A stretch of DNA of 64,000 bases, taken from assembly GCF_008017535.1 (NCBI RefSeq), contig NZ_VRUA01000009.1, positions 1 to 64,000 on the forward strand. Reading direction: 5' to 3'. Both the position numbers and the translations under genes were made by a program. Source of the stretch: Ottowia flava. GTDB taxonomy: Bacteria > Pseudomonadota > Gammaproteobacteria > Burkholderiales > Burkholderiaceae_C. Positions within the stretch are counted from its first letter, which is position 1. The number at the start of each line of letters is the position of its first letter. Of this stretch, positions 1 through 12,796 are shown piece after piece. The notes beneath the pieces are model-generated. The model saw only the letters and a list, made by a program, of their open reading frames with translations. It did no database searches and had not been told where the DNA came from.

Positions 1-29
1 CAAGAAGTAGCCGCTAGGTCAGCGTCCTA

Positions 30-58
30 CCGTAGCCCATTGCAGGCTATGGTTTGTT
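30..58 (+). terminator. Intrinsic terminator at left edge
   Basis: An 8-bp stem (30-37 with 45-52, one G-U pair), a 7-nt loop and the T-rich run TTTGTT. It probably ends a phage transcript entering from the left of the window. No gene ending inside the window could be identified upstream of it. Confidence 0.5.
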
Positions 59-160
59 AAGTACATATTTCCCAATTTTTACGCAACCAGTTGGGCGCTG
101 CGCAATCCCGCATCGAGGAACTGCAAAGCGCCGAATCGGTTTGATACATGGCCTAACCCC

Positions 161-186
161 CGACTTGCCCCCGTATAGGGGCAGCC
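161..186 (+). repeat. CGACTTGCC stem-loop, copy 1
   Basis: CGACTTGCC followed by a 6-bp stem (166-171 TGCCCC with 178-183 GGGGCA) around a CGTATA loop, then CAGCC. A second copy at 391-416 keeps the flanks and CGTA loop but has a compensated base pair in the stem. The surrounding 740 bases have no convincing gene. Function unknown; a structured RNA or protein-binding site in the phage is the likely reading. Confidence 0.35.
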
Positions 187-390
187 ATCAAGAAAGGACG
201 AGGATGCTTTTCTTTTTGCTTCGCATTCTCGCCAGCGCAATCACCCTCACGCAGCCAGCGCCGTGCACGCGCCAATGGCTAGTGAGTCACGAGGCCTCGA
301 CAGCCTATCCGGCTGCCGCCCACAGACGCTGGCGATCATGAATCGGGTGTTGGCATGCACGGCGCCAAGACCCGCCAAGAACTTCATTCA

Positions 391-416
391 CGACTTGCCG
401 CCGTAAGCGGCAGCCT
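391..416 (+). repeat. CGACTTGCC stem-loop, copy 2
   Basis: Second copy of the 161-186 motif: CGACTTGCC, a 6-bp stem (396-401 TGCCGC with 407-412 GCGGCA), loop CGTAA, then CAGCC. Relative to copy 1 the pair C170-G179 is G400-C408, a compensatory change that suggests the fold is kept. It lies inside a larger inverted repeat (361-370 with 420-429) directly before the tRNA-like element. Confidence 0.35.
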
Positions 417-420
417 TCAT

Positions 421-539
421 CTTGGCGCCTCGGTGGGGCGCGTCCCGGAAGGGGCAAGACACTCAACAGGCAGCGGTTTGAGTCCGCGACAAAACGAGAG
501 CCTGCCAATGCGCCGCTGGTTCGATTCCAGCGCGCCAAG
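421..539 (+). ncRNA. tRNA-like structured element, 119 nt
   Basis: Positions 515-531 form a canonical T-arm: 5-bp stem GCTGG/CCAGC with the 7-nt loop TTCGATT. Directly after it, 532-538 pairs perfectly (7 bp) with 422-428, as in a tRNA acceptor stem. A third 5-bp stem (437-441 with 510-514) abuts the T-arm where an anticodon or tmRNA-P2 stem would sit. The insert of about 68 nt contains a GGAA-capped hairpin (443-454) and a 6-bp stem (461-466 with 478-483). No normal D-arm and no encoded CCA are visible, so it is not an ordinary tRNA. It may be a decayed phage tRNA, a tRNA-like regulatory RNA or a tmRNA-like fold. The 5' acceptor strand can pair instead with 361-370. Confidence 0.4.
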
Positions 540-625
540 ATGATGGCTGCACCAGCGGTCGCAACGCGCACGGCGGCGTTCTCCACGGCGTCGTTACTCC
601 TTTGCCAACATCCGTGCGGTTGCGT

Positions 626-680
626 TTCCTGGGAAATCTCACAGAAATTCCGCCAGGAAGCTGCCGACTTGAGGCGGCAG
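626..680 (+). other. Candidate left-end hairpins of TnpB-1 unit
   Basis: Two consecutive stem-loops, 626-632 with 653-659 (TTCCTGG/CCAGGAA) and 661-666 with 675-680 (CTGCCG/CGGCAG), lie just upstream of the promoter of the RHH-tnpB pair. IS200/IS605-type units carry subterminal hairpins at both ends, so this is the likely left end. The exact boundary cannot be fixed because no empty site is available. Confidence 0.3.
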
Positions 681-708
681 AGGAATGGCGGCTCCTTTTA
701 CTGTATGG

Positions 709-737
709 TTGAACATGTGTATATTGAGTGGCATAAT
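709..737 (+). promoter_or_regulatory. Promoter of RHH-tnpB operon
   Basis: TTGAAC (709-714), a 17-bp spacer and CATAAT (732-737) give a good sigma70-type match. The start codon at 745 begins only 7 bases after the -10 box, so the transcript is probably leaderless or nearly so. A CATGTG/CACATG inverted repeat brackets the promoter and could be an operator for the RHH protein. Confidence 0.55.
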
Positions 738-744
738 CTAGCAC

Positions 745-873
745 ATGCGCCGCATGAACATCTTTTTCCCTGAACCGCTGATTGCGGCGTTGAAAGCCTT
801 GTCCAAAAATACCGGGCTTCCCGTGTCTGAGCACATCCGCCGCGCGATTGACGAATACCTGAAGCGCCAATGA
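745..873 (+). CDS. Ribbon-helix-helix (CopG/Arc-like) small protein
   Basis: A 42-residue protein with the pattern of a single RHH domain: beta strand MNIFFPEPL, helix AALKALSKNTGL, then SEHIRRAIDEYLKR. RHH proteins bind operator DNA as dimers and usually repress their own operon. The stop overlaps the tnpB-1 start (ATGA), so the two are translationally coupled, and the promoter directly in front has inverted half-sites. Inference: autoregulator of tnpB-1 expression or of the element. The start at 745 is followed by another ATG three codons later (754), which would remove only MRR. Identification rests on pattern alone, but the layout strongly supports a real gene. Confidence 0.7.
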   Translation: MRRMNIFFPEPLIAALKALSKNTGLPVSEHIRRAIDEYLKRQ

Positions 874-1916
874 GCACCAAGGTTTACCGCTACCGTGTGA
901 AGTCGTTGAACGGCTTGCTGAACAAGCAGGCGCGGGCGGTTTCCTACGTCTGGAACTTCTGCAATGACACGCAGAAGCATGCGCTCAAGTGGCGCAAGCG
1001 GTGGCCTACCGGGTTCGATCTTGACAAGTTGACCGCGGGTAGCAGCAAGGAACTTGGCATCCATGCCGGCACCATCAATGCCGTTACCGCGCAATACGCC
1101 AAGTCTCGAAAGCAATTCAATCGGCCTTACCTTCGCTATCGCGGCAAGAAGTCGCTGGGCTGGGTGCCACTGAAAGGACGTGATCTGAAACGCGAGGGCA
1201 ACGCCTTCCGGTTCGCTGGCAACACCTTCCGCGTGTTCAATTCCAGACCCCTGCCGGAAGGCAAGATCAAGGACGGAACCTGCTTTTCTCAAGACCGGCG
1301 CGGCAATTGGTTCTTGAATATCGTGGTTGAGGTGCCCGATGTGCAGGCCCGCCAGCCGTTGCGCGGCGTTGGAATCGACTTGGGCCTTAAAGACCTTGCC
1401 ACCCTGTCCACCGGCGAAAAGATCAAGCACCCTCGGTGTTTCCGCCAACTTGAGGAAAGACTGGCTAAGGCTCAGCGGGCCGGGAAGAAGCGGCTTGCCG
1501 CGAAGATTCACGCGAAGATCGCCAACACCCGGCAAGACTTCTTGCATAAGGCCAGCACAGATATTGTGCGGCGCTTCGATTACATCGCTGTTGGCAATGT
1601 CAGCAGCGGCAAACTCGCCAAGACCAAGATGGCGAAAAGCGTCTATGACGCATCTTGGCATTCCTTCAAAAAGATGCTTGCGTACAAGTCGATTGCGAAT
1701 GGCGCATGGTATGAAGAAGTGAATGAGGCTTTCTCGTCTGTAACCTGTTCTTCGTGCAATGCACGAAGCGGCCCTAACGGGCTGAAAGGCTTGCAAGTAA
1801 GGCAATGGGTATGTGCTGAGTGCGGTTGCGTACATGATCGTGACCAAAATGCTGCTCTGAATATCCTTGCCCGTGCGGGGCATCGCACGCCTGTAGAGGG
1901 AATCCGCCTGCTTTAG
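870..1916 (+). CDS. tnpB: TnpB-family RNA-guided endonuclease (unit 1)
   Basis: 348 residues. The N-terminal wedge/REC-like part (about 1-160) is followed by a RuvC domain: RuvC-I GVGIDLGLKD (Asp170), a helical insert, the RuvC-II region IAVGNVSSGKLAKTKMAKS, a zinc ribbon (Cys293, Cys296, Cys315, Cys318) and RuvC-III HDRDQNAALNI (Asp325). TnpB proteins cut DNA guided by an omega-RNA made from the element's right end. At the usual catalytic glutamate (VED in typical TnpB) this protein has Gly242; Glu286 (VNEAF), just before the zinc ribbon, may substitute. No TnpA transposase is present. The gene overlaps the RHH gene by 4 bases, and its stop codon lies in the right-end hairpin loop. The protein is clearly related to the second copy at 7867-8928 but is not a recent duplicate. 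Confidence 0.9.
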   Translation: MSTKVYRYRVKSLNGLLNKQARAVSYVWNFCNDTQKHALKWRKRWPTGFDLDKLTAGSSKELGIHAGTINAVTAQYAKSRKQFNRPYLRYRGKKSLGWVPLKGRDLKREGNAFRFAGNTFRVFNSRPLPEGKIKDGTCFSQDRRGNWFLNIVVEVPDVQARQPLRGVGIDLGLKDLATLSTGEKIKHPRCFRQLEERLAKAQRAGKKRLAAKIHAKIANTRQDFLHKASTDIVRRFDYIAVGNVSSGKLAKTKMAKSVYDASWHSFKKMLAYKSIANGAWYEEVNEAFSSVTCSSCNARSGPNGLKGLQVRQWVCAECGCVHDRDQNAALNILARAGHRTPVEGIRLL

Positions 1917-1953
1917 CTGGCGGAGGATGTCAAACATGTGGCCATCAAATTGC
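1899..1953 (+). ncRNA. Right end / omega-RNA 3' end and guide, unit 1
   Basis: GAATCCGCC, an inverted repeat (1904-1908 with 1919-1923) and GGAGGATGTCAA ending at 1933 match the usual right end of TnpB-bearing IS200/IS605-type elements, where omega-RNA scaffold ends and guide begins. The predicted guide starts at 1934 (ACATGTGGCCATCAAATTGC) and is simply the flanking phage DNA. The scaffold would extend upstream into the tnpB 3' end. Its 5' boundary is not determinable here. Confidence 0.6.
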
Positions 1954-1991
1954 CCGCGCAGGGCGTGACCGGGCGCGCTGAAATAGCACCG

Positions 1992-2100
1992 GCAGAGTGG
2001 TGAAAGTCCATGATGCAAGCGGCAACCCCGCCTCTGCGAGCCGAACTCATCCTGATAGGTTGGGCTAAGGCAGCTCCGTGGAATGCGGAGCACCTTTTTT
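1992..2100 (+). ncRNA. Candidate small RNA with terminator
   Basis: A gene-free stretch with nested stems: 1992-1997/2032-2037 (GCAGAG/CTCTGC) enclosing 2019-2022/2028-2031, then 2039-2046/2059-2066 with one internal mismatch, then a terminator stem GCTCCG/CGGAGC (2073-2078/2086-2091) followed by CACC and six Ts. I do not recognise the family. No open frame of useful length fits. No clear promoter was found, so the 5' end is uncertain; it may begin in or before the TnpB right end. Confidence 0.4.
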
Positions 2101-2246
2101 ATGACGGGAAGGCGCGAATGGTGATCGCGCGGCGAATGGAAACAACCGGGCGGATAGAGCCTCCTAGGCCGGGTCTCCGGCTGCTATAAAAAACGGTGCG
2201 CCGCCCAACGCCGGAGCAACACCACCGGCCCCGTCACCCCTTACCC

Positions 2247-2273
2247 AGCCCGCACTACGCGGGCTTTTCTTTT
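2247..2273 (+). terminator. Hairpin terminator before nuclease gene
   Basis: AGCCCGC (2247-2253) pairs with GCGGGCT (2259-2265), followed by TTTCTTTTT. It closes the non-coding stretch 1934-2283. The rest of that stretch (2101-2246) shows no gene. Confidence 0.6.
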
Positions 2274-2283
2274 TCGCGAAGCA

Positions 2284-2397
2284 ATGCATCAGATTGAATT
2301 CGGCAGCGTCTGCAGCGGCAAGAGCCGCACGGGCCGCCCGGCGATTGATTTGCTGGGCCAGCGTTTTGGCCGCCCACCCAATACCCTGGAGCAAGAC
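2284..2397 (+). pseudogene. Remnant of a GRPAIDL-type phage protein N-terminus
   Basis: The frame upstream of and continuous with the nuclease gene reads RTGRPAIDLLGQRFGR, a signature I associate with the N-terminus of phage HNH/homing-endonuclease-like proteins (GRPAIDLTGQRFGRLTV). It then stops resembling them and runs into the next gene. A good ribosome site (GGAG) precedes the internal ATG at 2398, so this part is probably an untranslated or optional remnant rather than the true start of the nuclease. Confidence 0.3.
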
Positions 2398-2799
2398 ATG
2401 CAGAAGCAGTGCACCAAATGCGGCGAGACAAAGTTGCTCCCGGATGCTTTCCATCTTTCATCAAAGTCATCGGACGGCCACGCATCTTGGTGCAAAGCAT
2501 GCGTGAACAGCATTCGTCGCGAAAACCGCAAGCGCACGTACACCACCGAGAACAAGCAGAAGTGGGCGATCAAGACTCGCTACGGCCTGACGCCCAGCGA
2601 TGTGCAAGCGATGCTTGAAAAGCAGGGCGGCGCATGTGCCATTTGCGTTCTTCCGCTCACCAAGCACCACATCGACCACTGCCACACCACTGGCAAGGTG
2701 CGGGGGTTGCTTTGCCACAGGTGCAACACAAGACTGGGTGGCCTTGATGACAAGCAGTGGAGAGATGCCGCATTTCGCTATCTGGGGCTGCAGGCATGA
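2398..2799 (+). CDS. Endonuclease VII-like HNH/His-Me nuclease
   Basis: 133 residues from the ATG preceded by GGAG. An N-terminal Cys4-like element (CTKCGETK and CKAC) precedes the family core: RYGLTPSDVQAMLEKQGG, CAIC, HHIDHCHTTGKVRGLLCHRCN. This is the arrangement of phage recombination endonuclease VII relatives (T4 gp49 family), which use a zinc-stabilised His-Me finger to cut branched or recombination-intermediate DNA. Here it probably acts in phage recombination or DNA packaging clean-up. Its stop overlaps the methyltransferase start. An in-frame start at 2284 exists but adds a segment of different origin. Confidence 0.8.
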   Translation: MQKQCTKCGETKLLPDAFHLSSKSSDGHASWCKACVNSIRRENRKRTYTTENKQKWAIKTRYGLTPSDVQAMLEKQGGACAICVLPLTKHHIDHCHTTGKVRGLLCHRCNTRLGGLDDKQWRDAAFRYLGLQA

Positions 2800-4181
2800 A
2801 CTTCATCTCCCTTTGCTCTGGTATTGAAGCGGCGAGCGTCGCGTTTGGCCCTTTGGGCTGGAAAGCCATCGCCTTCAGTGAAATTGAGGGGTTCCCATCT
2901 GCAGTTCTGGCCCATCACTACCCCACTGTCCGCAACTACGGGGACATGTCCCTGTTGCGCGACTGGCCCGATGAACTGTTTGCCGATGCTGACGCCATCG
3001 TTGGCGGCCCGCCATGCCAAGCGTTTTCCTGCGCTGGCGCGCGCCGCGGACTGCTCGATGCCAGAGGAAATCTCACCCTGATCTATGTGGAGCTAATCGA
3101 CCATGCTGATGACATCAGAAGAAAGTATGGCAAGCCGCCAATTGTTGCTCTTTACGAGAACGTGCCTGGAATCTTCAGCGACAGAACCAACGCCTTTGGC
3201 TGCCTGGTTGGAGGTCTTGCGGGCGAAGACGTACCAGTTGTCCCACCAGGGAAGCGGTGGACGGACGCTGGTTGTGTGTTTGGACCCGAAAGAGCAGTGG
3301 CGTGGAGACTCTTCGACGCCCAATTTTTCGGATTGGCCCAACGACGCCGCCGTGTGTTCGTTGTCGCAAGTGCTCGACCGGGGTTTGATCCCGCAGCGGT
3401 TCTTTTTGAGTGGAACGGCCTGCGCCGGGATACTGCGCCGAGCCGAGAAACGCGGGAAGTCGCTCCCACCATCCCTGCACGCAGCACTGCAGGCGGTGGC
3501 CTTGGAACGGACTTCGACTGCGACGGAGGAGTAGTTCAGGTCTGTCCAACCCTGCGGGCGGGCGGGAACCGAACTGGTGGCGACAGGCCACCCGGAACCG
3601 ATGTAGACACAGCCGACAGCCTGATCGTGCAGACGGCCCACACCCTGCGCGGCGAAGGCTTTGACGCCAGCGAGGACGGCACCGGGCGCGGCACGCCGCT
3701 GGTGCCGGTCAGCCCGATACCAATTGACATGCGCCAAGCGAGTCGCCCGGCGAACGTCAGCAACCCGAAGCCAGGCGACCCATGCCACCCGCTGGCCGCT
3801 GGGGCGCATGCGCCTGCGATTGCCTTTGACTGCAAAGCGTCTGGCCAAAACGGCTTTGGCGTAGGCGATGTGGCGTCAACCATGCGCGCCATGGGGCACG
3901 CTGGCAGCCACCAGAACGGCGGCGGCCATCAGGCTGTGGCACAGGGTATGCAAGTGCGCCGCCTAACGCCCGAGGAATGCGAAGCGCTGCAGGGATTCCC
4001 GCGTGGCTACACCGCCATACCTTGGCGCGGCAAGTCGGCTGACCAGTGCCCGGATGGCCCGCGCTACAAGGCGCTGGGCAACAGCTGGGCAGTGCACTGC
4101 GCGCGCTGGATCGGCCAGCGCCTAGAGCGCACCTATTCAACCAAGCCCGCTAGGCGGGCTTTTTCTTTGGAGCAGCCATGA
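2796..4181 (+). CDS. DNA cytosine-5 methyltransferase
   Basis: 461 residues from the ATG overlapping the previous stop. Conserved motifs are in order: I (ISLCSGIEAAS, SAM binding), IV (GGPPCQAFS with the catalytic Cys), VI (ENVPG), VIII (QRRRRVFVVA), IX (RRLTPEECEALQGFP) and X (ALGNSWAVHCARWI). The long target-recognition region is rich in Gly and Asp. All catalytic motifs look intact. A phage-borne C5 methylase normally protects phage DNA from host restriction; no cognate restriction enzyme is in the window. The last dozen residues are encoded by the hairpin at 4144-4168, so the C-terminal tail was probably acquired by reading into a terminator-like sequence. Confidence 0.9.
   Translation: MNFISLCSGIEAASVAFGPLGWKAIAFSEIEGFPSAVLAHHYPTVRNYGDMSLLRDWPDELFADADAIVGGPPCQAFSCAGARRGLLDARGNLTLIYVELIDHADDIRRKYGKPPIVALYENVPGIFSDRTNAFGCLVGGLAGEDVPVVPPGKRWTDAGCVFGPERAVAWRLFDAQFFGLAQRRRRVFVVASARPGFDPAAVLFEWNGLRRDTAPSRETREVAPTIPARSTAGGGLGTDFDCDGGVVQVCPTLRAGGNRTGGDRPPGTDVDTADSLIVQTAHTLRGEGFDASEDGTGRGTPLVPVSPIPIDMRQASRPANVSNPKPGDPCHPLAAGAHAPAIAFDCKASGQNGFGVGDVASTMRAMGHAGSHQNGGGHQAVAQGMQVRRLTPEECEALQGFPRGYTAIPWRGKSADQCPDGPRYKALGNSWAVHCARWIGQRLERTYSTKPARRAFSLEQP
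4144..4168 (+). terminator. Hairpin inside the methyltransferase 3' end
   Basis: AGCCCGC (4144-4150) pairs with GCGGGCT (4154-4160), followed by a T-rich run. It lies inside the last codons of the methyltransferase, and the ribosome site GGAG of the next gene follows at once. Same stem sequence as 2247-2265. Confidence 0.55.
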
Positions 4182-4378
4182 ACGCCCCTGACTTTGCCCT
4201 GCGCGAGCGAATCCGTGACGCCGCCCAGTTCCAGACCCGCGTTCGCTTTGCCGAGCTGGCGGCCAGGCGAGGCGATTTTCAGGCTACCTGCCGACGCTTG
4301 TTCGCGGCTGGCGTGCCTTACGACCAGTGCTACTGCGCGGCAAAAGCGCTGATTTTGAGTGTGAGGAGTGAAGCATGA
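4178..4378 (+). CDS. Small phage protein, unknown
   Basis: 66 residues, basic, predicted helical, with no motif I recognise (starts MNAPDFALRERIRDAAQFQ). ATG overlaps the methyltransferase stop (ATGA) and GGAG sits 8 bases upstream. The 3' end overlaps the next gene by 4 bases. Coupling with its neighbours makes it very likely real; role in the early phage operon unknown. Confidence 0.6.
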   Translation: MNAPDFALRERIRDAAQFQTRVRFAELAARRGDFQATCRRLFAAGVPYDQCYCAAKALILSVRSEA

Positions 4379-4749
4379 GAACCCAGTACGCCGGCACACC
4401 CACCGGCACCGGCCCTGCCCTGCCGCAGTACCTAAGCGACGCCGAGGCGCGCCAACAAGACGAAGCAGCCTACGAGCGCGCCCTGTACCCAGCGCCCAGC
4501 GCAGCGGAACGAACACTGGAAGTGCTGACCGACGATCCAGACGAGTGCTTCATTGCTGCGGAAATCGGCGAATACGACGGCGAACGCGAAGCGCTGGGCC
4601 TGCTCCTGAGCGTGCTGGCCGACCACAAAGAGAACAAGACCGGGCGCGAGGCAGACATTCTGCGGCGCTGCGACCAGTTGATTGATCTCGTTTTCAAGAA
4701 CCGGGGCGACGACTACTGGCGGGGCGTGGATCGGAGGAAGGCGATATGA
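4375..4749 (+). CDS. Phage hypothetical protein
   Basis: 124 residues, acidic. A proline-rich N-terminal third is followed by a predicted helical part (ERTLEVLTDDPDECFIAAE, LLLSVLADHKENKTGREAD). No catalytic motif is visible. It overlaps both neighbours by 4 bases, so it belongs to the same translationally coupled chain. Function not assigned. Confidence 0.6.
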   Translation: MRTQYAGTPTGTGPALPQYLSDAEARQQDEAAYERALYPAPSAAERTLEVLTDDPDECFIAAEIGEYDGEREALGLLLSVLADHKENKTGREADILRRCDQLIDLVFKNRGDDYWRGVDRRKAI

Positions 4750-4943
4750 GCTCGCCCCACGCACACGCCGAATTCCTGCGCGCCCTGGCCGATGGCGAGG
4801 TCATCGAAACGCGGCTTGAGGGCTGCGACGACGAGTGGGTGCCGGTCTTGAGTGCCAGTACCACTGCAATGCACATGCTGCTTAACCCGGCCATGTGGAC
4901 AAACGCTAAGTACGAATTTCGAGTGGCACAGGAGGCCGCATGA
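4746..4943 (+). CDS. Small phage protein, unknown
   Basis: 65 residues starting MSSPHAHAEFLRALADGEVIE. Short phage proteins with an FLRALADGE-like opening and a W/F-rich end are common in phage early operons, but I know no assigned function. It overlaps both neighbouring genes by 4 bases and is preceded by GGAGG (4735-4739). Confidence 0.6.
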   Translation: MSSPHAHAEFLRALADGEVIETRLEGCDDEWVPVLSASTTAMHMLLNPAMWTNAKYEFRVAQEAA

Positions 4944-5086
4944 ACTGGATTCTCACCATGGTTCTGGTGACCACAGGCGCGACTTACGACGTGCCCATGC
5001 CAACACAGGCCAAGTGCGAAGCGCTGGCCAAAACCATCAACGCCAAAGACAAGGCGTACCACGCCGAATGCAAGGAGCAGAAATGA
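4940..5086 (+). CDS. 48-residue exported-like phage protein
   Basis: Too short for common ORF cut-offs. It starts by ATGA overlap with the previous stop: MNWILTMVLVTTGATYD, a hydrophobic N-terminus resembling a signal peptide or membrane anchor, then a charged region with two cysteines (AKCEALAK, HAECKEQ). It overlaps the next gene by 4 bases. The chain of overlaps supports translation; function unknown. Confidence 0.5.
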   Translation: MNWILTMVLVTTGATYDVPMPTQAKCEALAKTINAKDKAYHAECKEQK

Positions 5087-5280
5087 TGCTGACCATCACC
5101 GCACCAGAAATGCGCGGCGCCACCGAATCACGGCGCGCCAACTTCACCACCACCAGCAAAGGAATCATCATCGGTGGATCGTGGCTCAAGAAGCCTACGC
5201 CATGGGATGCCCAGGCGATCAGCGGGCCGCACCGCAAGACTTTCATGCAGCGGCTTCGGGCGATGGCGGGGGCGGTATGA
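5083..5280 (+). CDS. Small phage protein, unknown
   Basis: 65 residues (MMLTITAPEMRGATESRRAN...), basic, with a central GIIIGGSWLKKP segment. Two adjacent ATG codons (5083, 5086); the first overlaps the preceding stop. The 3' end overlaps the next start. No recognisable domain. Confidence 0.5.
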   Translation: MMLTITAPEMRGATESRRANFTTTSKGIIIGGSWLKKPTPWDAQAISGPHRKTFMQRLRAMAGAV

Positions 5281-5447
5281 CCCGCCCGTCCGGCCCAGTG
5301 CTGGCGCTCCTTCTGGTACTGGCCTTCCTATTCGCATTCGCTGGCTACCACGACGCACCCAGCGATACCGACGACCTAATCAACACCGCCGCCAATCTGA
5401 CAGACGCCCAGGGTGCGGCTGTTTTGGCGGGGCTTTCGAGGAAGTGA
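5277..5447 (+). CDS. Single-pass membrane phage protein
   Basis: 56 residues. The start is chosen by ATGA overlap with the preceding gene. After MTRPSGP comes one clear transmembrane segment (VLALLLVLAFLFAFAGY), then an acidic tail. Probably an inner-membrane phage accessory protein. Function unknown. Confidence 0.55.
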   Translation: MTRPSGPVLALLLVLAFLFAFAGYHDAPSDTDDLINTAANLTDAQGAAVLAGLSRK

Positions 5448-5448
5448 C

Positions 5449-5562
5449 ATGAAACGCCTCCTTGACCTCATTCGCATCTACCGGCAGTACCGTCGCCATC
5501 ACTCGCGCGCCCATGCTTGGCGCATCGCATGGGGCTGTGCGATTCAGGGTCTGCCTTTCTAG
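5449..5562 (+). CDS. 37-residue basic phage protein
   Basis: Short frame MKRLLDLIRIYRQYRRHHS..., ending IQGLPF, with the start codon one base after the previous stop. Arg/His/Tyr-rich amphipathic peptides of this shape recur in phage early regions as far as I recall. It is followed by the AGGAG ribosome site of the next gene. Function unknown; call depends on context and composition. Confidence 0.45.
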   Translation: MKRLLDLIRIYRQYRRHHSRAHAWRIAWGCAIQGLPF

Positions 5563-5570
5563 GAGCAAAC

Positions 5571-6227
5571 ATGGACAACATGAAACTGTGGCAATCGGTG
5601 TCCGTCACCGACCCGAAGGCAGTTAAGCCGATCACAGGCAAGCAATACAAGGGCAACAGCCCAAAGCCATACTGGATCATCCAGCGCGCGACAGAAACCT
5701 TTGGCCCATGCGGTCAAGGATGGGGTGTACAGGTCCTTGACGAGCGCTTTGAGCGCTTTGGCGAGCATGAGGCCTTGCACGTTGCCAAGGTGCGGGTTTG
5801 GTACATGCGGGACAACCAACGCTGCGAAATCGAGCAGATGGGTCAAACCCGCGCGGCCTATATGTCAGCCGCTGGCAAGCACATCGTGGATGAAGATGCG
5901 CCAAAGAAGTCCGTGACTGACGGCATGGTCAAGTGCTTATCTATGCTGGGTTTTGCTGGTGACATTTTCAGCGGCCGATGGGATGACTCGAAGTACGTCG
6001 AATGGGCCTCCGAAGAAACGCGCCGTCGCGAAACGCCACTTATTTCCGCTGAGCAGGCCGCAGAAATCAAACAGCTATTGCAGGACACCCAGAGCGACAC
6101 CAAGAAGTTTCTCGCATGGGTGAGCAAAGGCTGTGGAATGACAGTGGCTAGCGTGGACGAGATGCCCGCTGACGCTTACACCCCGTCCGTAAAAAGCCTC
6201 AAAGAAAAACAGAAGGTGCCCGCATGA
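5571..6227 (+). CDS. Probable Rad52-like phage annealing protein
   Basis: 218 residues from the ATG following AGGAG. The N-terminal 130 residues carry a pattern I associate with phage Rad52/Sak-type single-strand annealing proteins: KPYWIIQRATETFGPCGQGWG, then strands ending VWYM, then DEDAPKKSVTDGMVKCLSMLGFAGDIFSGRWDDSKY. The C-terminal part is a helical linker ending in a basic tail. Such proteins coat ssDNA and pair homologous strands in phage recombination. Position just before a Gp157-like gene and ssb fits a recombination/replication module. The family assignment is by pattern memory, so a profile search is the decisive check. Confidence 0.65.
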   Translation: MDNMKLWQSVSVTDPKAVKPITGKQYKGNSPKPYWIIQRATETFGPCGQGWGVQVLDERFERFGEHEALHVAKVRVWYMRDNQRCEIEQMGQTRAAYMSAAGKHIVDEDAPKKSVTDGMVKCLSMLGFAGDIFSGRWDDSKYVEWASEETRRRETPLISAEQAAEIKQLLQDTQSDTKKFLAWVSKGCGMTVASVDEMPADAYTPSVKSLKEKQKVPA

Positions 6228-6721
6228 GCCTGACCCTATATGAACTCAAAGGCCAGTGGCTAGCCCTGGCAGAAAAGCTGTCTGACATGGACCTGGATGC
6301 GGACACCATCGCAGACACCATCGAAGGCTCGGATGAGCAGCTTGCACTTGAGGAAAAGGTGCAGGGCTATGAGCTAGTTGCCCGCACGATGGAGGCACCT
6401 CGCCAGGCCATCCAGGCGGAAATCAAGCGGCTACAGACGCTGGACAAGGCCATTAGCGCTCGTACCGACGCCCTACGCAAGCGAGTGCAGGACACGATGA
6501 CCGAATTGGGCATCCAAAAGATAGCTTGCCCGCTGTTCGAGGTTCGCATCCAGAAAAATCCGCCAGCCGTCGAAGTGTTTGACGAGCAGATGATCCCATC
6601 CATGTTCTGGCGCACGCCCGACCCGGTGCTGGACAAGGCATTGCTCAAGGAGCACATGAAAGCGGGCGAGGAAATCCCCGGCGCCCGGCTGATTCAAGGC
6701 GAGAGCCTGCGCGTGAAGTAA
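6224..6721 (+). CDS. Gp157-like phage protein
   Basis: 165 residues. The first 90 are largely helical/coiled coil (LYELKGQWLALAEKLSDMDL; APRQAIQAEIKRLQTLDKAI) and the end carries the pattern CPLFEVRIQKNPPAVEVFDE then IPSMFWRTPDPVLDKALLKE, as in the siphovirus Gp157 family. The molecular role of that family is poorly known; members sit beside ssb and recombination genes as here. ATGA overlap with the annealing-protein gene, then a hairpin before ssb. Confidence 0.75.
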   Translation: MSLTLYELKGQWLALAEKLSDMDLDADTIADTIEGSDEQLALEEKVQGYELVARTMEAPRQAIQAEIKRLQTLDKAISARTDALRKRVQDTMTELGIQKIACPLFEVRIQKNPPAVEVFDEQMIPSMFWRTPDPVLDKALLKEHMKAGEEIPGARLIQGESLRVK

Positions 6722-6730
6722 CCCCAACCC

Positions 6731-6756
6731 CCGCCCTGCATGTGGGGCGGCTTTTT
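6731..6756 (+). terminator. Hairpin terminator before ssb
   Basis: CCGCCC (6731-6736) pairs with GGGCGG (6745-6750), then CTTTTT. The ssb ribosome site (AAAGAGAA) follows within 15 bases, so it may attenuate rather than end transcription. Confidence 0.55.
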
Positions 6757-6767
6757 GAAAGAGAACC

Positions 6768-7217
6768 ATGAACGTAATCACCATTGCCGGGAATCTGGGC
6801 AAAGACATTGAAATTCGCCGCACCCCGAACGGCGATGCGGTTGGCTCGTTTTCTGTTGGCGACAGTCAGGGGCAAGACAAGCCGACCATTTGGTGGCGCT
6901 GCCAGCTCTGGGGAAAGAGGGCTGAAGCGCTCGCGCCCTTTTTGCTGAAGGGACAGCCTGTCACAGTGTCAGGCGAGGTAACGGAGCGTGAGTACACCGA
7001 CAAAGACAACCAGCAGCGCAAGGCGCAAGAGGTGCGCGTGAACAACGTAAAGCTGCAAGGAAGCAAGCAGGGCAGCGCACCCGCGCCAGCACCGCAGGCA
7101 CGGCGCGCACCGGCTCCGGCTCCGCATCAGGGTGGTTCATCGGGCTTTGACGATATGGACTCAGATGTCCCGTTCACCGACCCCCTAAAGCGCCGCGCCC
7201 TAGCGCTTTCAATCTAA
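6768..7217 (+). CDS. ssb: Single-stranded DNA-binding protein
   Basis: 149 residues. One OB fold covers about residues 1-105: MNVITIAGNLGKDIEIRRTP, GDAVGSFSVG, TIWWRCQLWGKRAEALAPFL, KGQPVTVSGEVTEREY. A Pro/Ala-rich linker and the acidic SSB tip DMDSDVPF follow. Unlike host SSB, where the tip ends the protein, 13 more residues (TDPLKRRALALSI) follow it here. The tip normally recruits repair and replication proteins. The phage version protects ssDNA during phage replication and works with the annealing protein upstream. Hairpins flank the gene on both sides. Confidence 0.9.
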   Translation: MNVITIAGNLGKDIEIRRTPNGDAVGSFSVGDSQGQDKPTIWWRCQLWGKRAEALAPFLLKGQPVTVSGEVTEREYTDKDNQQRKAQEVRVNNVKLQGSKQGSAPAPAPQARRAPAPAPHQGGSSGFDDMDSDVPFTDPLKRRALALSI

Positions 7218-7224
7218 CCCACCC

Positions 7225-7248
7225 AGCCCTCCCAGCGAGGGCTTTTTT
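7225..7248 (+). terminator. Hairpin terminator after ssb
   Basis: AGCCCTC (7225-7231) pairs with GAGGGCT (7237-7243), then a run of Ts to 7248. The next start codon (7260) follows 11 bases later. Confidence 0.6.
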
Positions 7249-7259
7249 ACGCACAAACC

Positions 7260-7580
7260 ATGTCCCGAATCAACGCAACCGAACTCACCATCACCAATGA
7301 CCCGTACATCAGCGGGCGAATTGTCCGATCCAAGTACGACCCGATCTTTGAGCAAATCGAAGTAGGCCAGCGCATCGTCTGTCCGCAGGGCACTGCCGCG
7401 CGCCTTGCGGTGCAGTTTCGCAAGTGGCTGGCTTCACACGGCTATTCCGATGTTGAAGTGAAGGCGCGGGAACGCTGCGCCGATGGCCAGGGCGGCGTGT
7501 GGTGGCTGGCTGGCGAGAAGAAGGCGCAGACACGCTGGAATACGCCAGGGAACAAGGCGCCACTGCGGAAAGCGACGTGA
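7260..7580 (+). CDS. Phage hypothetical protein
   Basis: 106 residues (MSRINATELTITNDPYISGR...). A mixed fold is likely, with a short segment KARERCADGQGGVWWLAGEKK. No family recognised. It is the last phage gene before the second TnpB unit; its stop lies about 20 bases left of that unit's candidate left-end hairpin, so its last residues could come from the inserted element. Confidence 0.6.
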   Translation: MSRINATELTITNDPYISGRIVRSKYDPIFEQIEVGQRIVCPQGTAARLAVQFRKWLASHGYSDVEVKARERCADGQGGVWWLAGEKKAQTRWNTPGNKAPLRKAT

Positions 7581-7601
7581 TGACCACGAGTGCGCGTCAA
7601 G

Positions 7602-7650
7602 CCTCGGCCTTCAGGCCGGGGAAGGAAAGCGCGAAGCCCTTCAGGGCTTC
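7602..7650 (+). other. Candidate left-end hairpins of TnpB-2 unit
   Basis: Two hairpins with the same TTCA loop: 7602-7609 with 7614-7621 and 7633-7639 with 7644-7650. The right-end hairpin (8946-8965) has the same TTCA loop. GTCAA precedes the left hairpin (7596-7600) and GTCAA ends the right end (8970-8974). The second hairpin overlaps the stop of the minus-strand small gene. Together these suggest the element spans about 7601-8974. Confidence 0.45.
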
Positions 7651-7802
7651 TTTGGGCGCCACCGATCAATCAGCAGCCGTAGCGCAGGAACACCAGCCAT
7701 GCGAACCTTTTCCCATTGCGCGCGCGTGAGCCGCAGCGTGCCATGCACCAATTCCTTATCCGGCGCGACAGGCGGGCGCCCGGTCTTTTTTCGTTCTTCC
7801 AT
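7641..7802 (-). CDS. Small basic DNA-binding-like protein beside tnpB-2
   Basis: 53 residues from ATG at 7802: MEERKKTGRPPVAPDKELVH, then GTLRLTRAQWEKVRMAGVPALRLLIDRW. The order basic GRPP arm, short strand (GTLRL), helix, turn, helix resembles minimal ribbon-helix-helix or AT-hook-like regulators, but I cannot assign a family. It diverges from tnpB-2 across a 64-bp gap that holds a 9-bp inverted repeat overlapping the tnpB promoter. By analogy with the RHH gene coupled to tnpB-1, it is probably a regulator belonging to the element. Confidence 0.5.
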   Translation of the reverse strand: MEERKKTGRPPVAPDKELVHGTLRLTRAQWEKVRMAGVPALRLLIDRWRPKKP

Positions 7803-7815
7803 GCCTGAATTATCC

Positions 7816-7860
7816 GTGGCACGAGAACAGCTTGCAAGCGTCGTATTTTCGTGCCACAAT
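7816..7860 (+). promoter_or_regulatory. tnpB-2 promoter with 9-bp inverted repeat
   Basis: TTGCAA (7832-7837), 17 bp, CACAAT (7855-7860), with the start codon 7 bases later (7867), so the mRNA is probably leaderless. A perfect inverted repeat GTGGCACGA (7816-7824) / TCGTGCCAC (7849-7857) spans the promoter, one half overlapping the -10 box. It could be the operator of the divergent small protein. Confidence 0.55.
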
Positions 7861-7866
7861 AACGCC

Positions 7867-8928
7867 ATGCAGACGGCAGTGAAGACACTCAAGATTCGCA
7901 TCAAGGACAAGCACGCCAGTGTGCTTCGGCGCATGGCGCGCGACGTGAATCAGGTGTTCAACTTCGCCAACGAAACCAGCAGCCGCGCCATCCGTGAGCG
8001 TGGCAAGTGGCTGAGCGCCTACGACCTACAGAAGCTCACCGCCGGCTACAGCAGGTGCGATGGCGTTACGGTCGGCAGCGGCACAGTGCAACTGGTGTGC
8101 GTGGAGTACGCCACACGCCGCAAGCAGTTCAAGAAGACCCGCCTCAACTGGCGCGTCAGCAACCCGAAGTCGCCCAAGTATTCGCTTGGCTGGATTCCAT
8201 TCAAGGGCGGGCACGCCAAGTACAAGTCGGGCCAAGTCCAGTTTGGTGGGCACAAATTCAGCCTGTGGGACAGCTATGGCCTGAGCCGCTTTGAGCTGCG
8301 AGCCGGATCGTTCAACGAAGACAGCCGTGGACGCTGGTATTTCAATGTCGCCGTCGAGGTCGAGGTTCTCCCCAGCCAGGGGGCATCGGCTGTCGGCATC
8401 GACTTGGGGCTGAAAGAGTGCGCCACCACAAGCGACGGCGACAAGCTGCAAGGACGGTGGTTCCGCGAGCTTGAGCCGCAACTTGCAGCCGCGCAGAGGG
8501 CGCGGAAGAAAAAGCGCGTCAAGGCGATACACGCCAAGATTGCGAATCGCCGCAAGGATGCAATCCACAAGTTCACCACGCACCTTGTGAAAAACAACGC
8601 CGCCATCTTCGTGGGCGACGTGGCTAGCGCCAAGCTGGTCAAAACCAAGATGGCCAAGTCCACACTGGATGCGGGCTGGGCCATGTTCAAAACCGCTTTG
8701 GAATACAAGTGCCGTCAGGCAGGAGTGGTTTTTGAGGTAGTCAACGAAGCGTATTCAACCCAGGCGTGTTCTTCATGCGGAAGCGTGGAGGGGCCGAAAG
8801 GCTCGAACGACCTAGGAATAAGGCGATGGACTTGTAGTTGCGGCGCGGAACACGACCGCGACGTGAACGCTGCGAAGAACATCGCCCGATTCGGACTGGA
8901 ATCGCTAGCAGTAGGAGCCCCAGCATGA
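7867..8928 (+). CDS. tnpB: TnpB-family RNA-guided endonuclease (unit 2)
   Basis: 353 residues from the ATG after the promoter; an in-frame extension to 7483 exists but crosses the element's end and the divergent gene. RuvC-I AVGIDLGLKEC (Asp179), RuvC-II region IFVGDVASAKLVKTKMAKS, zinc ribbon Cys301, Cys304, Cys323, Cys325 (second pair CSC, one residue shorter than usual) and RuvC-III HDRDVNAAKNI (Asp332). As in unit 1, Gly (250) replaces the canonical RuvC-II Glu, and a VNEAY Glu (294) precedes the zinc ribbon. No tnpA nearby. The stop overlaps an ATG (8925) that reads through the right end into a dUTPase fragment. Confidence 0.9.
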   Translation: MQTAVKTLKIRIKDKHASVLRRMARDVNQVFNFANETSSRAIRERGKWLSAYDLQKLTAGYSRCDGVTVGSGTVQLVCVEYATRRKQFKKTRLNWRVSNPKSPKYSLGWIPFKGGHAKYKSGQVQFGGHKFSLWDSYGLSRFELRAGSFNEDSRGRWYFNVAVEVEVLPSQGASAVGIDLGLKECATTSDGDKLQGRWFRELEPQLAAAQRARKKKRVKAIHAKIANRRKDAIHKFTTHLVKNNAAIFVGDVASAKLVKTKMAKSTLDAGWAMFKTALEYKCRQAGVVFEVVNEAYSTQACSSCGSVEGPKGSNDLGIRRWTCSCGAEHDRDVNAAKNIARFGLESLAVGAPA

Positions 8929-9125
8929 GCACGGATTTTCAGAATCCCCGTGCTTCAGCGCGGGGAGCAGTCAAAGCAGAGGATATGCTGCCGTTTGAGA
9001 TCAAGGCAGGCGAACGCATCGCCCAGGCCAAGGTTCAAGACGCCCCGCAATACCGCCTCGAATGGGCAGACGACCTGTCCGCGACGGCGCGGGGTGTTGG
9101 CGGGTTTGGCAGTAGCGGGGCCTAG
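8925..9125 (+). pseudogene. C-terminal dUTPase fragment
   Basis: The last 46 codons (from an internal ATG at 8985) carry dUTPase motif 4 (FEIKAGERIAQAKV) and the nucleotide-closing motif 5 (ARGVGGFGSSG). The rest of a dUTPase, including the catalytic motif 3, is missing. Upstream codons (8925-8984) run through the TnpB-2 right end. Joining the flanks of the element in silico (7600 to 8975) does not restore a longer dUTPase, so most of the gene was already gone or was deleted with the insertion. It might still be translated by coupling to tnpB-2 (ATGA). Activity as a dUTPase is unlikely. Confidence 0.7.
8931..8994 (+). ncRNA. Right end / omega-RNA 3' end and guide, unit 2
   Basis: GAATCC, then an 8-bp stem 8946-8953/8958-8965 with TTCA loop, then GAGCAGTCAA ending at 8974: the standard right-end layout. 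The predicted guide starts at 8975 (AGCAGAGGATATGCTGCCGT) and lies in the coding region of the dUTPase fragment, so the nuclease would recognise an unoccupied copy of this locus. Confidence 0.65.
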
Positions 9126-9127
9126 CC

Positions 9128-9292
9128 ATGCAATGGATTTGCACCGACTGCGCTGCCAAGCGCGGCAGCTTCAACCCCGATGGGCACATCGCTACTTGGC
9201 ACGTTGGCGAGTGCGACGTGTGCCACGAACAGAAGCCAGTGACGGAGCCGAGGGACTTCCGGCCACGGCCTGACGCAGAAGGAACACCATGA
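9128..9292 (+). CDS. 54-residue zinc-ribbon-like phage protein
   Basis: Reads MQWICTDCAAKRGSFNPDGH then HVGECDVCHEQKPV: two CxxC pairs spaced as in a small zinc ribbon, with a charged Pro/Arg tail. The start codon is 2 bases after the preceding stop, and the end overlaps the next gene by ATGA. Likely a zinc-binding accessory protein; role unknown. Confidence 0.65.
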   Translation: MQWICTDCAAKRGSFNPDGHIATWHVGECDVCHEQKPVTEPRDFRPRPDAEGTP

Positions 9293-9768
9293 AACCCAAA
9301 AAAATCTACGGCCCTTGGATCAAGTGGCACGGCGGCGAGTGCCCTGTGCCTCCAGACACACTGGTGGAGGTGCGACTCCGAATTGGGGAGCGAGGGAAGC
9401 CAGTCGCTGCAGGCGCCTACGACTGGCCGCACAGTGATGAAGACGGTGACATCGTTGAATACCGCATCGTCCCCGAGCAACCCGATCTCGACGCCGCAGA
9501 GAATCTGTTGCGCGCCAACGGCTACACCATCATCCCGCCAGTCAAGCCGCTCACGTTCGATGACGTGGCGCCGATGAAGGAAGCGCCGGAAATTGGAACG
9601 TGGTACTGGCTGGTTCAGCCTTTTAATAGTCGAGGGGTAGAGAGTTTTGCCTGGTGCGGCGATGGGTATGACTTGGACGCTTTGCGACACCGCATGGCCT
9701 ACCGCGATAGAGAGCATGCCCTGATCGCAGCGCGGCACATCTTTGGATTGAAGGGGGGTGAACTGTGA
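9289..9768 (+). CDS. Phage hypothetical protein (GPWIKWHGGECPV type)
   Basis: 159 residues. The N-terminal GPWIKWHGGECPVPPDTLVEV resembles a repeated small phage domain that I recall in many phage-encoded proteins of unknown role. The middle is acidic; the end is predicted helical (REHALIAARHIFGL). ATGA overlaps at both ends keep it in the coupled operon. Confidence 0.65.
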   Translation: MKPKKIYGPWIKWHGGECPVPPDTLVEVRLRIGERGKPVAAGAYDWPHSDEDGDIVEYRIVPEQPDLDAAENLLRANGYTIIPPVKPLTFDDVAPMKEAPEIGTWYWLVQPFNSRGVESFAWCGDGYDLDALRHRMAYRDREHALIAARHIFGLKGGEL

Positions 9769-10181
9769 CCACACCACGACAACGTGCGGAGCTTGCGACC
9801 CTGTATTACTCGGATAGAACATTGAAATGTTGGGTGAAAGATAATAGCGACCGCTGGGTCCCGTTGCGCGATCCCAACTTCAAATCAAGCGCCCTCGAAT
9901 ACTACGTTGGCCACGAACCCCCGCCACCTGACAAGCACACCATCACCCTGACCGTGAATGGCAAAGAGTGGGTGTTGCCCGAGCCGTTGAGGGAGGAGCC
10001 AGAAAAAGGCGCAGAGTATTGGATCGTTAACAATGCAGTGAACTCCGGGGCTATGTGCCTGCACTGGGATGGCCAGATTGGCGAACGTTTGGCGCTCAAC
10101 CACAACACCATTCACGCCACATCCGACGACGCCCAAGCATGGGCCGAGTTCGACAAGTGGTGTAGGGGAGGCGGGGCGTGA
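9765..10181 (+). CDS. Phage hypothetical protein
   Basis: 138 residues. Starts by 4-base overlap at GTG (9765). Contains strands around HTITLTVNGKEWVLPEPLRE and a Trp-rich second half (YWIVNNAVNSGAMCLHWDG; DAQAWAEFDKW). The VNGKEWVLPEPL segment has a counterpart in the protein at 10515 (AGRIWSLPAPN), hinting at a shared small domain. Function unknown. Confidence 0.6.
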   Translation: MTTPRQRAELATLYYSDRTLKCWVKDNSDRWVPLRDPNFKSSALEYYVGHEPPPPDKHTITLTVNGKEWVLPEPLREEPEKGAEYWIVNNAVNSGAMCLHWDGQIGERLALNHNTIHATSDDAQAWAEFDKWCRGGGA

Positions 10182-10300
10182 GTTCCGTTGTAATCGCCGT
10201 TCTCGCCGGCCTGCCAAGCGCCCATGAACTCGCGGGCAGGCATGTCCACCTTGGGAAGCTCAAGGCAGTGCAAACGTGCTGCGTGGGAGAGCCATCATGA
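10178..10300 (+). CDS. 40-residue phage peptide (GTG start)
   Basis: GTG overlaps the previous stop (GTGA), reading VSSVVIAVLAGLPSAHELAG..., and its stop overlaps the next start (ATGA). It fills the only gap in an otherwise unbroken chain of overlapping genes. The N-terminal segment is hydrophobic but short. No known family. Confidence 0.4.
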   Translation: MSSVVIAVLAGLPSAHELAGRHVHLGKLKAVQTCCVGEPS

Positions 10301-10518
10301 CCATCAGTGCGTTCCCTGTGCTTGAACGAGGAGGCAGCGGCCTTGAGTTGACCGACCCTGGTATGACGCTTCGCGACTATTTCGCGGCTCGGGCGATTGG
10401 GCCGCTGCTGCAGCAGATCGAAGTCTACCCAGATGAGAACTGGCGCATAGCTCTCGCAATTGACGCATATGCAATGGCTGACGCCATGCTTGTAGCGCGA
10501 GAAAGGGCGCCATCATGA
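10297..10518 (+). CDS. Phage protein, GMTLRDYFAARA type
   Basis: 73 residues. The stretch PGMTLRDYFAARAIGPLL and the later AYAMADAMLVAR match a small phage protein type common in siphophage early regions; the family has no established function. The ATG at 10297 is chosen over an upstream frame because it overlaps the preceding stop. It overlaps the next gene by 4 bases. Confidence 0.7.
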   Translation: MTISAFPVLERGGSGLELTDPGMTLRDYFAARAIGPLLQQIEVYPDENWRIALAIDAYAMADAMLVARERAPS

Positions 10519-10799
10519 CCACCGACACCGAAACCCAGCAGATTACCCATGTCGCCATCAGTTACGCGGGCCGCATCTGGTCGTTACCCGCGCCGAACCG
10601 ACACCACGACGTTATCCGGTTCATCGCCAAAGAAACTGGATCGGGCCTGTACGGCCCGCACAGCGAAGGCTTTCTCACCGAGAACGGCACATACCTTGAT
10701 CGCCTCTCTGCCCGCTGGCTCGCTGAGAGTACCGGCCAGTTCAAGCGCGCAGCCGGTGGAACGCAAAGCCCCCACCTATTTTCGGAGGATTTATGGTGA
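10515..10799 (+). CDS. Phage hypothetical protein
   Basis: 94 residues. HVAISYAGRIWSLPAPNRHHDVIRFI looks like a compact beta-alpha unit, followed by GLYGPHSEGFLTENGTYLDR and a helical tail. The GPHSEGFLTENGTYLDR segment recalls phage proteins of unknown function. Overlaps both neighbours. Confidence 0.6.
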   Translation: MTTDTETQQITHVAISYAGRIWSLPAPNRHHDVIRFIAKETGSGLYGPHSEGFLTENGTYLDRLSARWLAESTGQFKRAAGGTQSPHLFSEDLW

Positions 10800-11284
10800 C
10801 AGACACCGAAGCGCTGCGGGCGAAGTTTGAGGCGTGGTTCTCGGGCGGCTTCCCACGCTCAGTCGAGCGCAACGTAGACGGCGAGTACAAGTACATGCCG
10901 GCCGACTCTGCATGGCGAACCTACCAAGCCGGCCACGCTGCCGCCAAGGCTGAGACTGCGGATGTGGGGGAGCCAGCGGCGTGGATGGCCGTGGTGACGC
11001 ACTCACGCTCGCAAGGACCGCAGGCGCACTTTGTATCTGATGCCAAGCTGGCAAGGCAGTGGGATTACAACGGCGTTGTTGATGGCGAGCCGTGCATCGT
11101 GCAGCCCCTATTCACAGCCCACCAGCTTGCCGCTGCGGTGGCTGCAGCGCGGGAGAAATGCGCTGGTATCGTGAACGAACTCCGCATGGAATGCGCCCGC
11201 CGCAACATGCCCGAATCGGCGACCATGCTGTGGCACGCGGAGGACGCCATCCGCGCAGGGGCGAAGGAGCCGAGCGATGGCTAG
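10793..11284 (+). CDS. Phage hypothetical protein
   Basis: 163 residues with a strong ribosome site (CGGAGGAT). The N-terminal ALRAKFEAWFSG and AWRTYQAGHAAAKA segments, plus a central GEPAAWMAVVTHS part and a helical end (AAVAAAREKCAGIVNELRME), are typical of phage genes that combine a DUF-like head with an attached helical tail. Function unknown. Confidence 0.65.
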   Translation: MVTDTEALRAKFEAWFSGGFPRSVERNVDGEYKYMPADSAWRTYQAGHAAAKAETADVGEPAAWMAVVTHSRSQGPQAHFVSDAKLARQWDYNGVVDGEPCIVQPLFTAHQLAAAVAAAREKCAGIVNELRMECARRNMPESATMLWHAEDAIRAGAKEPSDG

Positions 11285-11354
11285 CCGCAGAGCACGCCAG
11301 CGCCGTGACAAGCGGGCGCCGATACCCGACTTTGACGAACAACGCCCCGCCTAG
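11277..11354 (+). CDS. 25-residue Arg-rich phage peptide
   Basis: MASRRARQRRDKRAPIPDF..., starting inside the previous gene's end (8-base overlap) and ending in the terminator hairpin. Highly basic N-terminus. Support is only position and composition. Confidence 0.25.
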   Translation: MASRRARQRRDKRAPIPDFDEQRPA

Positions 11355-11368
11355 CGGGCTTTCTTTTT
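11344..11368 (+). terminator. Hairpin terminator before integrase operon
   Basis: CCCGC (11346-11350) pairs with GCGGG (11354-11358) around CTA, then TTTCTTTTT. The GGAGG ribosome site of the DUF4224 gene follows at once. Confidence 0.55.
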
Positions 11369-11378
11369 GGAGGAACGC

Positions 11379-11597
11379 ATGAGCGCACTACCGTTTCTCA
11401 GTGAGGACGAGGTAGACACCTTGTGTAAGCCGCTAACACAGCGCGCGGCCCAACTGCGCAAGCTGTGTAGCCTGCTGGGGGTGAAAGAGCTGCCCCGGCG
11501 CCCCGATGGGTTCCCGCTGGTCGGGCGCAAAATGGCTGAGGCGAAGCTGAACCACGACAAACCGATCCAACCTGGGCAATTCAACTGGAGCAAGTGA
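11379..11597 (+). CDS. DUF4224 protein upstream of integrase
   Basis: 72 residues. MSALPFLSEDEVDTLCKPLT, then QRAAQLRKLCSLLGVKELPR and RPDGFPLVGR match DUF4224, a short family typically encoded directly before phage tyrosine integrases and suspected to help control excision. GGAGG lies upstream of the ATG; the frame extends to a TTG at 11367 but the ribosome site favours 11379. Its stop overlaps the integrase start by one base (TGATG). Confidence 0.8.
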   Translation: MSALPFLSEDEVDTLCKPLTQRAAQLRKLCSLLGVKELPRRPDGFPLVGRKMAEAKLNHDKPIQPGQFNWSK

Positions 11598-12634: not shown

Positions 12635-12640
12635 GGCCGG

Positions 12641-12671: not shown

Positions 12672-12719
12672 TCTGATGGTTTCGCATCAACTTTGATAGC
12701 GCAAAACCCGCGTGAATAT

Positions 12720-12796
<77 letters not shown>

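Follow-up and report, generated by a model that had tools for sequence, protein, structure and literature searches.

TnpB proteins in which the RuvC-II glutamate has moved from its usual position are already known. Yoon et al. (2023; PMC10711439) defined the alternative glutamate (Ealt) by the same E-x6-C-x2-C spacing that is described below and split the Ealt TnpBs into a D-Phi-G and a DPG group, while Nety et al. (2023; PMC10278001) described RuvC-II-rearranged TnpB clades, with one RII-r5 ortholog reported to be active and to cut DNA. In Fanzor1 structures the glutamate lies on the loop joining strand 5 and the TNB domain, and TnpB and Cas12a are described alike (PMC11423790); in SpuFz1 two magnesium ions are coordinated by E541, D383, N385 and D606 (PMC10432273). 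With a non-canonical site cutting may also be absent, as in Cas12m2, which has an HDD triad and binds and silences (PMC10442227), and the RuvC domain is inactivated in the TldRs, which are carried by temperate phages (PMC13418256). Here we describe two tnpB genes, tnpB-A and tnpB-B, in a prophage of Ottowia flava, found in a stretch of 64,000 nucleotides (contig NZ_VRUA01000009.1 of assembly GCF_008017535.1, positions 1 to 64,000; hereafter the window). Judged from sequence comparisons and predicted structures, their products are very probably RNA-guided DNA nucleases of the Ealt group, each encoded by the main gene of an IS200/IS605-type element that lacks TnpA. The genes and the codons of their catalytic positions are:

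870 to 1916, forward strand: tnpB-A, 348 aa
1377-1379 (D170), 1593-1595 (Gly242), 1725-1727 (Glu286) and 1842-1844 (D325), forward strand: catalytic positions of TnpB-A
7867 to 8928, forward strand: tnpB-B, 353 aa from the favoured ATG
8401-8403 (D179), 8614-8616 (Gly250), 8746-8748 (Glu294) and 8860-8862 (D332), forward strand: catalytic positions of TnpB-B

The open reading frame (ORF) of tnpB-B as called mechanically is 481 aa long and begins at 7483. We favour the ATG at 7867 because the alignments of the relatives begin there, and the residue numbers 179, 250, 294 and 332 used in an earlier note on this DNA fit that start too. Both proteins score well above the cut-off of 100 bits for the NCBIfam family guided_TnpB (NF040570), with 224.8 bits for TnpB-A and 226.9 bits for TnpB-B, and they share 45% identity. 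Both have DLG at RuvC-I, a Gly at the canonical RuvC-II site and a Glu exactly six residues ahead of the first Cys of the zinc ribbon. In the phmmer alignment to ISDra2 TnpB (PDB 8bf8/8exa) the 'AVGN' of TnpB-A lies under 'GTEH', with Gly242 at the Glu of that motif, which we take to be the catalytic E278. Canonical relatives read (I/V)ED or VER where TnpB-A and TnpB-B have Gly, so the alignments agree with the earlier note in placing Gly242 and Gly250 at the position of the canonical glutamate.

A total of 41 proteins, chosen from full-length relatives with near-copies left out, were aligned. D170, G242, E286 and D325 (TnpB-A numbering) are invariant across them, and the only invariant acidic residues are D142, D170, D260, E286 and D325. 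The retention of the RuvC-I and RuvC-III aspartates (Asp170 and Asp325; Asp179 and Asp332), also claimed in the earlier note, is thereby borne out, the equivalents in TnpB-B being conserved likewise. The same holds for the conserved Glu just ahead of the zinc ribbon (E286/E294), which is invariant in alignments with either protein as first row. A second conserved glutamate at the site, which would have spoken against a relocation, was looked for in the 41 proteins; E286 is the sole invariant Glu. As to a bias of the search towards this residue, E286 lies inside one of the six peptide patterns used for TnpB-A and E294 in none of those used for TnpB-B.

The set was extended to 67 rows with 26 proteins from phage records, further genomes and the O. 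flava genome itself. Fifty-three rows combine Gly at the canonical site with Glu at the alternative site, and all 53 have both Asp. The arrangement is reversed in 12 rows (L004, L090, L091 and L128-L136), with the Glu at the canonical and not at the alternative site; within this set the RuvC-III position is Asn in L135, and L136 stops short of it. The remaining two are L003, with Glu at neither site, and L005, a fragment without the region. In a tree of 64 rows (L003, L004 and L005 left out; midpoint root for drawing only) one branch with a support of 100/100 separates the 53 Gly/Glu rows from the other 11, although the program flags a meeting of long branches, among them the branch between the two sets. 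The E-x6-C-x2-C spacing was found in 77 of 84 loci matched by tblastn, and the seven without it (L061, L078, L079, L081, L083, L084 and L086) are partial or interrupted genes.

Two further TnpB-like genes lie elsewhere in the same genome. L003 (1465-3162 of contig C15, reverse strand) encodes a 565-aa TnpB-like protein with Glu at neither RuvC-II site, a candidate for a cleavage-deficient TnpB relative judging from these residues; the adjoining ORF looks by eye like a conjugation ATPase. L004 (1369-2931 of contig C27, reverse strand) encodes a 520-aa TnpB-like protein with the canonical Glu and an incomplete first Cys pair in the zinc ribbon.

AlphaFold2 models built on these alignments reached a pLDDT of 84.8 for TnpB-A and 86.5 for TnpB-B. 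In the TnpB-A model D170 lies in strand 166-171, the old site (Gly242) in strand 238-243 and D325 in helix 324-337, and E286 is found directly past strand 280-285, the fifth RuvC strand. The TnpB-B model is equivalent (strands 174-179, 244-251 and 288-293, helix 331-348), with Glu294 directly past strand 288-293. Foldseek returned TnpB 8h1j as top match for both models (E 2.9e-20 for A and 3.5e-19 for B), in line with a TnpB fold, and the lower matches include Cas12f, TranC and mimivirus Fanzor2 (9b0l).

These features can be compared with the described groups. TnpB-A and TnpB-B resemble the Ealt D-Phi-G TnpBs (PMC10711439) in the Glu six residues before CxxC, the missing canonical Glu and the DLG at RuvC-I; nothing examined sets the two apart from that group, and they are phage-borne and lack TnpA. 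The RII-r3 and RII-r5 clades (PMC10278001) are likewise mobile-element TnpBs with the RuvC-II Glu absent from its usual column, a likeness that is by description only. ISDra2 TnpB (PDB 8h1j, 8exa) is the best structural match and among the best sequence matches, but has its Glu at the canonical site. Fanzor2 (mimivirus L79, PDB 9b0l) and Fanzor1 share the fold and, as described in the literature, also the place of the alternative Glu; at RuvC-I, Fanzors carry DPG (PMC10711439), whereas both proteins here have DLG, and we therefore rejected a Fanzor or pro-Fanzor identity.

Both tnpB genes lie within elements whose ends could be predicted by comparison with related loci:

639 to 642, forward strand: TCAC, putative target-adjacent motif (TAM) of element A, with the left end at about 643, tentatively placed by eye against L007, L118, L119 and L122
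1900 to 1933, forward strand: hairpin and GTCAA at the right end of element A, where the presumed omegaRNA scaffold has its 3' end
1934 to 1953, forward strand: predicted guide of element A, set by its position after GTCAA, where copies diverge (20 nt, length assumed)
7581 to 7584, forward strand: TGAC, putative TAM of element B, with the left end at about 7585
8945 to 8974, forward strand: hairpin and GTCAA at the right end of element B, altered relative to L019 and L036
8975 to 8994, forward strand: predicted guide of element B, set by its position after GTCAA (20 nt, length assumed)

The right ends are the best defined. An expression for hairpin and terminal motif matched 50 of 56 elements, 47 with GTCAA, L023 with GTCAT, L033 with GCCAA and L089 in the wrong register (its end is present by eye). 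Element B of the window and L088 went unmatched and have an end by eye; the other four (L020, L021, L032 and L051) show no clear hairpin end by eye. When the right flanks of the matched loci were compared with all loci, the DNA past GTCAA mostly differed between copies, and flanks were shared only by L012/L013, L023/L024, L027/L028/L029, L053/L081 and L064/L069. In 28 differing ends selected from the matched ones, with element A included and element B left out, 9 of 9 hairpin pairs have changed on both sides; 90.6% of the cells pair, against at most 65.8% when the alignment is slid, and the covariation score was reached in 0 of 500 shuffles. The right end of element A fits this covarying hairpin and is followed by a variable flank, as expected for IS200/IS605 elements, whereas the hairpin of element B is altered. 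Element B spans from about 7585 to 8974, and the first bases of its right flank are AGAGG and the ATG that opens the following phage ORF.

Left ends of the B type were found in 17 of 23 loci scanned and are preceded by TGAC (14 loci, the window's element B among them), TGAT (2) or TGGC (1). Five loci had none; in L042 the match was discarded for lying far from tnpB, and in L050 it lies about 560 bases ahead of tnpB and may not belong to it. Going by these data only, TGAC might be part of element B itself, as its first bases, instead of a TAM. The assignment for element A, whose left end was read by eye in comparison with four relatives that carry TCATC, is weaker than that for element B. A TAM of TCAC has been given for AmaTnpB (Nety et al., 2023; PMC10278001).

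Signs of a structured RNA at the 3' ends of the genes are mixed. At identical residues, codon identity over the final 45 residues exceeds that of the preceding part, both in the A family (0.56 vs 0.46, 10 sequences) and in the B family (0.70 vs 0.62, 17 sequences), but it begins to rise at about codon 211-226, too early to be explained by an RNA of usual length. The folds of the 3' ends are just moderately stable (z of -1.97 for A and -1.15 for B). Rfam gave no match over positions 1-12000 at E up to 1. The family HgcC (RF00062), which we take to be an archaeal RNA, matched the 3' end of tnpB-A (1822-1946) with 18.3 bits, far under its gathering score of 50, and the tnpB 3' ends of 5 of the 10 relatives given with 20.0-27.7 bits, all under that score as well; sot0042 matched in one. 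The HgcC matches in the relatives are:

3462-3580 of L007, weak match on the tnpB 3' end
3468-3571 of L017, weak match on the tnpB 3' end
3999-4123 of L089, weak match on the tnpB 3' end
2455-2594 of L118, weak match on the tnpB 3' end
2446-2571 of L121, weak match on the tnpB 3' end

No individual HgcC or sot0042 match is convincing, but their shared position on tnpB 3' ends is, and by this shared position HgcC may be a family of TnpB guide RNAs. A literature search for HgcC together with TnpB returned no paper. A structured RNA at 1970-2100 was also considered and dropped (fold z-score of -0.11; in viral contigs, a pattern derived from it matched nothing but the same prophage). Upstream of element A there are two similar short hairpins about 230 bases apart (161-190 and 391-419); these were dropped as RNA candidates as well, since they fold no better than many shuffles and no Rfam match comes close to a gathering score.

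What was directly observed is the residue pattern with its conservation, the clade, and the right ends with their covariation; a mechanism can be proposed from these. The RuvC-II Glu would sit after the fifth RuvC strand, just ahead of the zinc ribbon, in a protein with DLG at RuvC-I, and would hold the metal ions together with the two Asp. In each element the 3' end of the gene and the right-end hairpin would form the omegaRNA scaffold, with the phage DNA after GTCAA as guide. The protein would load this omegaRNA and cut DNA in which the guide sequence follows a TAM, that is, alleles without the element.

Other genes of interest lie close to or within the two elements:

745 to 873, forward strand: 42-aa ribbon-helix-helix (RHH) gene, stop overlapping the tnpB-A start (ATGA)
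7641 to 7802, reverse strand: ORF of 53 aa within element B, without a Pfam or NCBIfam match up to E 1

The 42-aa protein matches the Pfam families RHH_3 (33.8 bits, cut-off 21.6) and RHH_1 (32.3 bits, cut-off 20.5). An RHH gene is found beside tnpB in five relatives (L007, L010, L011, L118 and L119, the last by eye since the motif missed it). A narrow motif was scanned in 16 relatives (L007-L012, L014-L017, L033, L075-L077, L088 and L089, with L013 left out as a copy of L012) and found in three of them (L007, L010 and L011), though it may have missed others. In a further scan none was seen in L121 and L122, while L120 and L123 end too close to tnpB. A literature search for a link between RHH proteins and TnpB listed PMC8303175, where both terms stand in unrelated passages, and PMC8987985. 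Of 16 relatives scanned by motif, only L019 showed the divergent 53-aa ORF.

The surrounding genes are phage genes (endonuclease VII, C5 methyltransferase, Gp157, SSB and integrase), and the same prophage is present in IMG/VR as a contig of 11,890 bases. A tRNA-Met gene about 90 bases from the end of the phage integrase gene (11594-12796) may be an attachment site. Because the contig starts at window base 1, 869 bases ahead of tnpB-A, the prophage is not visible whole and its other end is not seen.

Several points weigh against the assignment of TnpB-A and TnpB-B to Ealt nucleases of mobile elements. Neither element contains a TnpA ORF, and a genome-wide search with PF01797 for a Y1 transposase gave one match, on another contig, which by eye we presume to be REP-associated (repetitive extragenic palindromic). 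The right-end hairpin could be kept for binding of TnpA, not as RNA, and for this reason it marks the element ends more surely than an RNA function. The guide RNA of element B may not work, because the right end (8905-8974) is altered, with extra bases and a shorter spacer between hairpin and GTCAA than in L019 and L036, and with an alternative hairpin compared to the 90% identical L019. The pTM of the models is just 0.63 (A) and 0.61 (B), and pLDDT falls below 50 near the site (residues 256-259 in A and 263-269 in B).

For the guides of the window's two elements, searches of viral contigs, phage records and the O. flava genome yielded neither a target nor an empty site, which also weighs against the assignment. 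The start of the B guide with GAC had four matches in viral contigs, with unrelated flanks, and the start of the A guide with TCAY had none. The DNA after A and after B had no match in phage records. For the gene ahead of element B there was a single further viral relative, 49% identical, besides three distant matches in genomes. In the O. flava genome the first 18 bases of the B guide matched only the element itself with up to 2 mismatches, and those of the A guide matched two other places at 3 mismatches with no element after them.

The missing TnpA and the altered right end of element B would also fit inactive relics, that is, stranded elements in a decaying prophage whose ORFs are intact only through recency, and so would the start of the contig just ahead of tnpB-A. 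We consider this unlikely, as both ORFs have their full length and lack none of the catalytic and zinc residues, and as the right end of element A agrees with the covarying hairpin. tnpB elements without TnpA are known, and a divergent ORF with TnpA-like motifs was seen by eye in L062 and L067.

Alternatively, TnpB-A could be a phage-adapted homing nuclease which, together with the coupled RHH regulator, cuts element-free phage alleles, so that repair copies the element and a transposase is no longer needed. The coupling to RHH in several relatives points this way, as does Salmonella phage LPSTLL, where a relative of element B (L089, 2950-4115) lies between head and lysis genes. The phages seszw and SB28 lack the insert, and the LPSTLL guide matches their empty sites (19/20 after TGAT in seszw and 18/20 after TGGT in SB28), which fits cutting of element-free alleles as far as these sequences go. 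However, the left junction in LPSTLL keeps a second copy of AGAATTAAT, which is not a repeat at the empty sites of seszw and SB28; homing alone does not explain this copy of AGAATTAAT, and neither does simple IS200/IS605 insertion. No empty site was found for A or B, nor a comparable one for the relative in Acinetobacter phage HFM1, and RHH was absent or not seen in most of the A-like relatives scanned. Homing of this kind is therefore an improbable explanation. An extended form, in which element A is a two-gene phage cassette whose RHH repressor controls homing by the Ealt TnpB without a transposase and in which the relocated Glu also limits collateral single-strand cutting, seems doubtful to us.

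The earlier note had suggested that the two proteins could have either a rearranged catalytic site or be nuclease-dead repressors. Its first half is supported by the reciprocal placement of Glu in the two sets, by its invariance and by the published class with the same spacing. The second half, in which TldR-like proteins would block transcription by guide-directed DNA binding without cutting, is very unlikely. The canonical Glu is absent, element A adjoins a gene for a DNA-binding RHH protein, and like the TldRs these are TnpB relatives carried by temperate phages (PMC13418256). Yet no catalytic position has been lost without replacement: TnpB-A and TnpB-B differ from TldRs in keeping the full Asp-Glu-Asp set, and on this residue pattern we rejected membership of that group. 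Many relatives are also multi-copy elements with differing flanks (in single genomes, B-like copies, partial ones included, occupy 10 loci in Lampropedia hyalina and 7 each in one Malikia and in Vreelandella stevensii), the guides have no second target in their own genome (up to 2 mismatches for B and closer than 3 for A), and a RuvC-II-rearranged ortholog, of RII-r5, is reported to be active (PMC10278001). Finally, it is scarcely credible that another acidic residue completes the triad and that Gly was misplaced by aligners slipping in the short RuvC-II region, since that region aligns both to the canonical relatives and to ISDra2 and the five invariant acids offer no other Glu.

We thus return to the assignment of TnpB-A and TnpB-B to the Ealt group. 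Because the rearrangement of the Glu has already been described, we regard them as members of a known active group, not as dead copies, and from their sequences they are probably active nucleases. The relocation itself being published, the small novelty is the presence of two such enzymes in one prophage with different putative TAMs, together with the coupled RHH gene in part of the group of TnpB-A. The two add compact examples (348 and 353 aa) that are phage-borne and well bounded and for which TAMs and guides can be predicted. This makes them convenient for asking whether a relocated Glu serves catalysis in proteins beyond the Fanzor lineage, and whether TnpBs of phages can spread without a transposase, through the cutting of element-free alleles.

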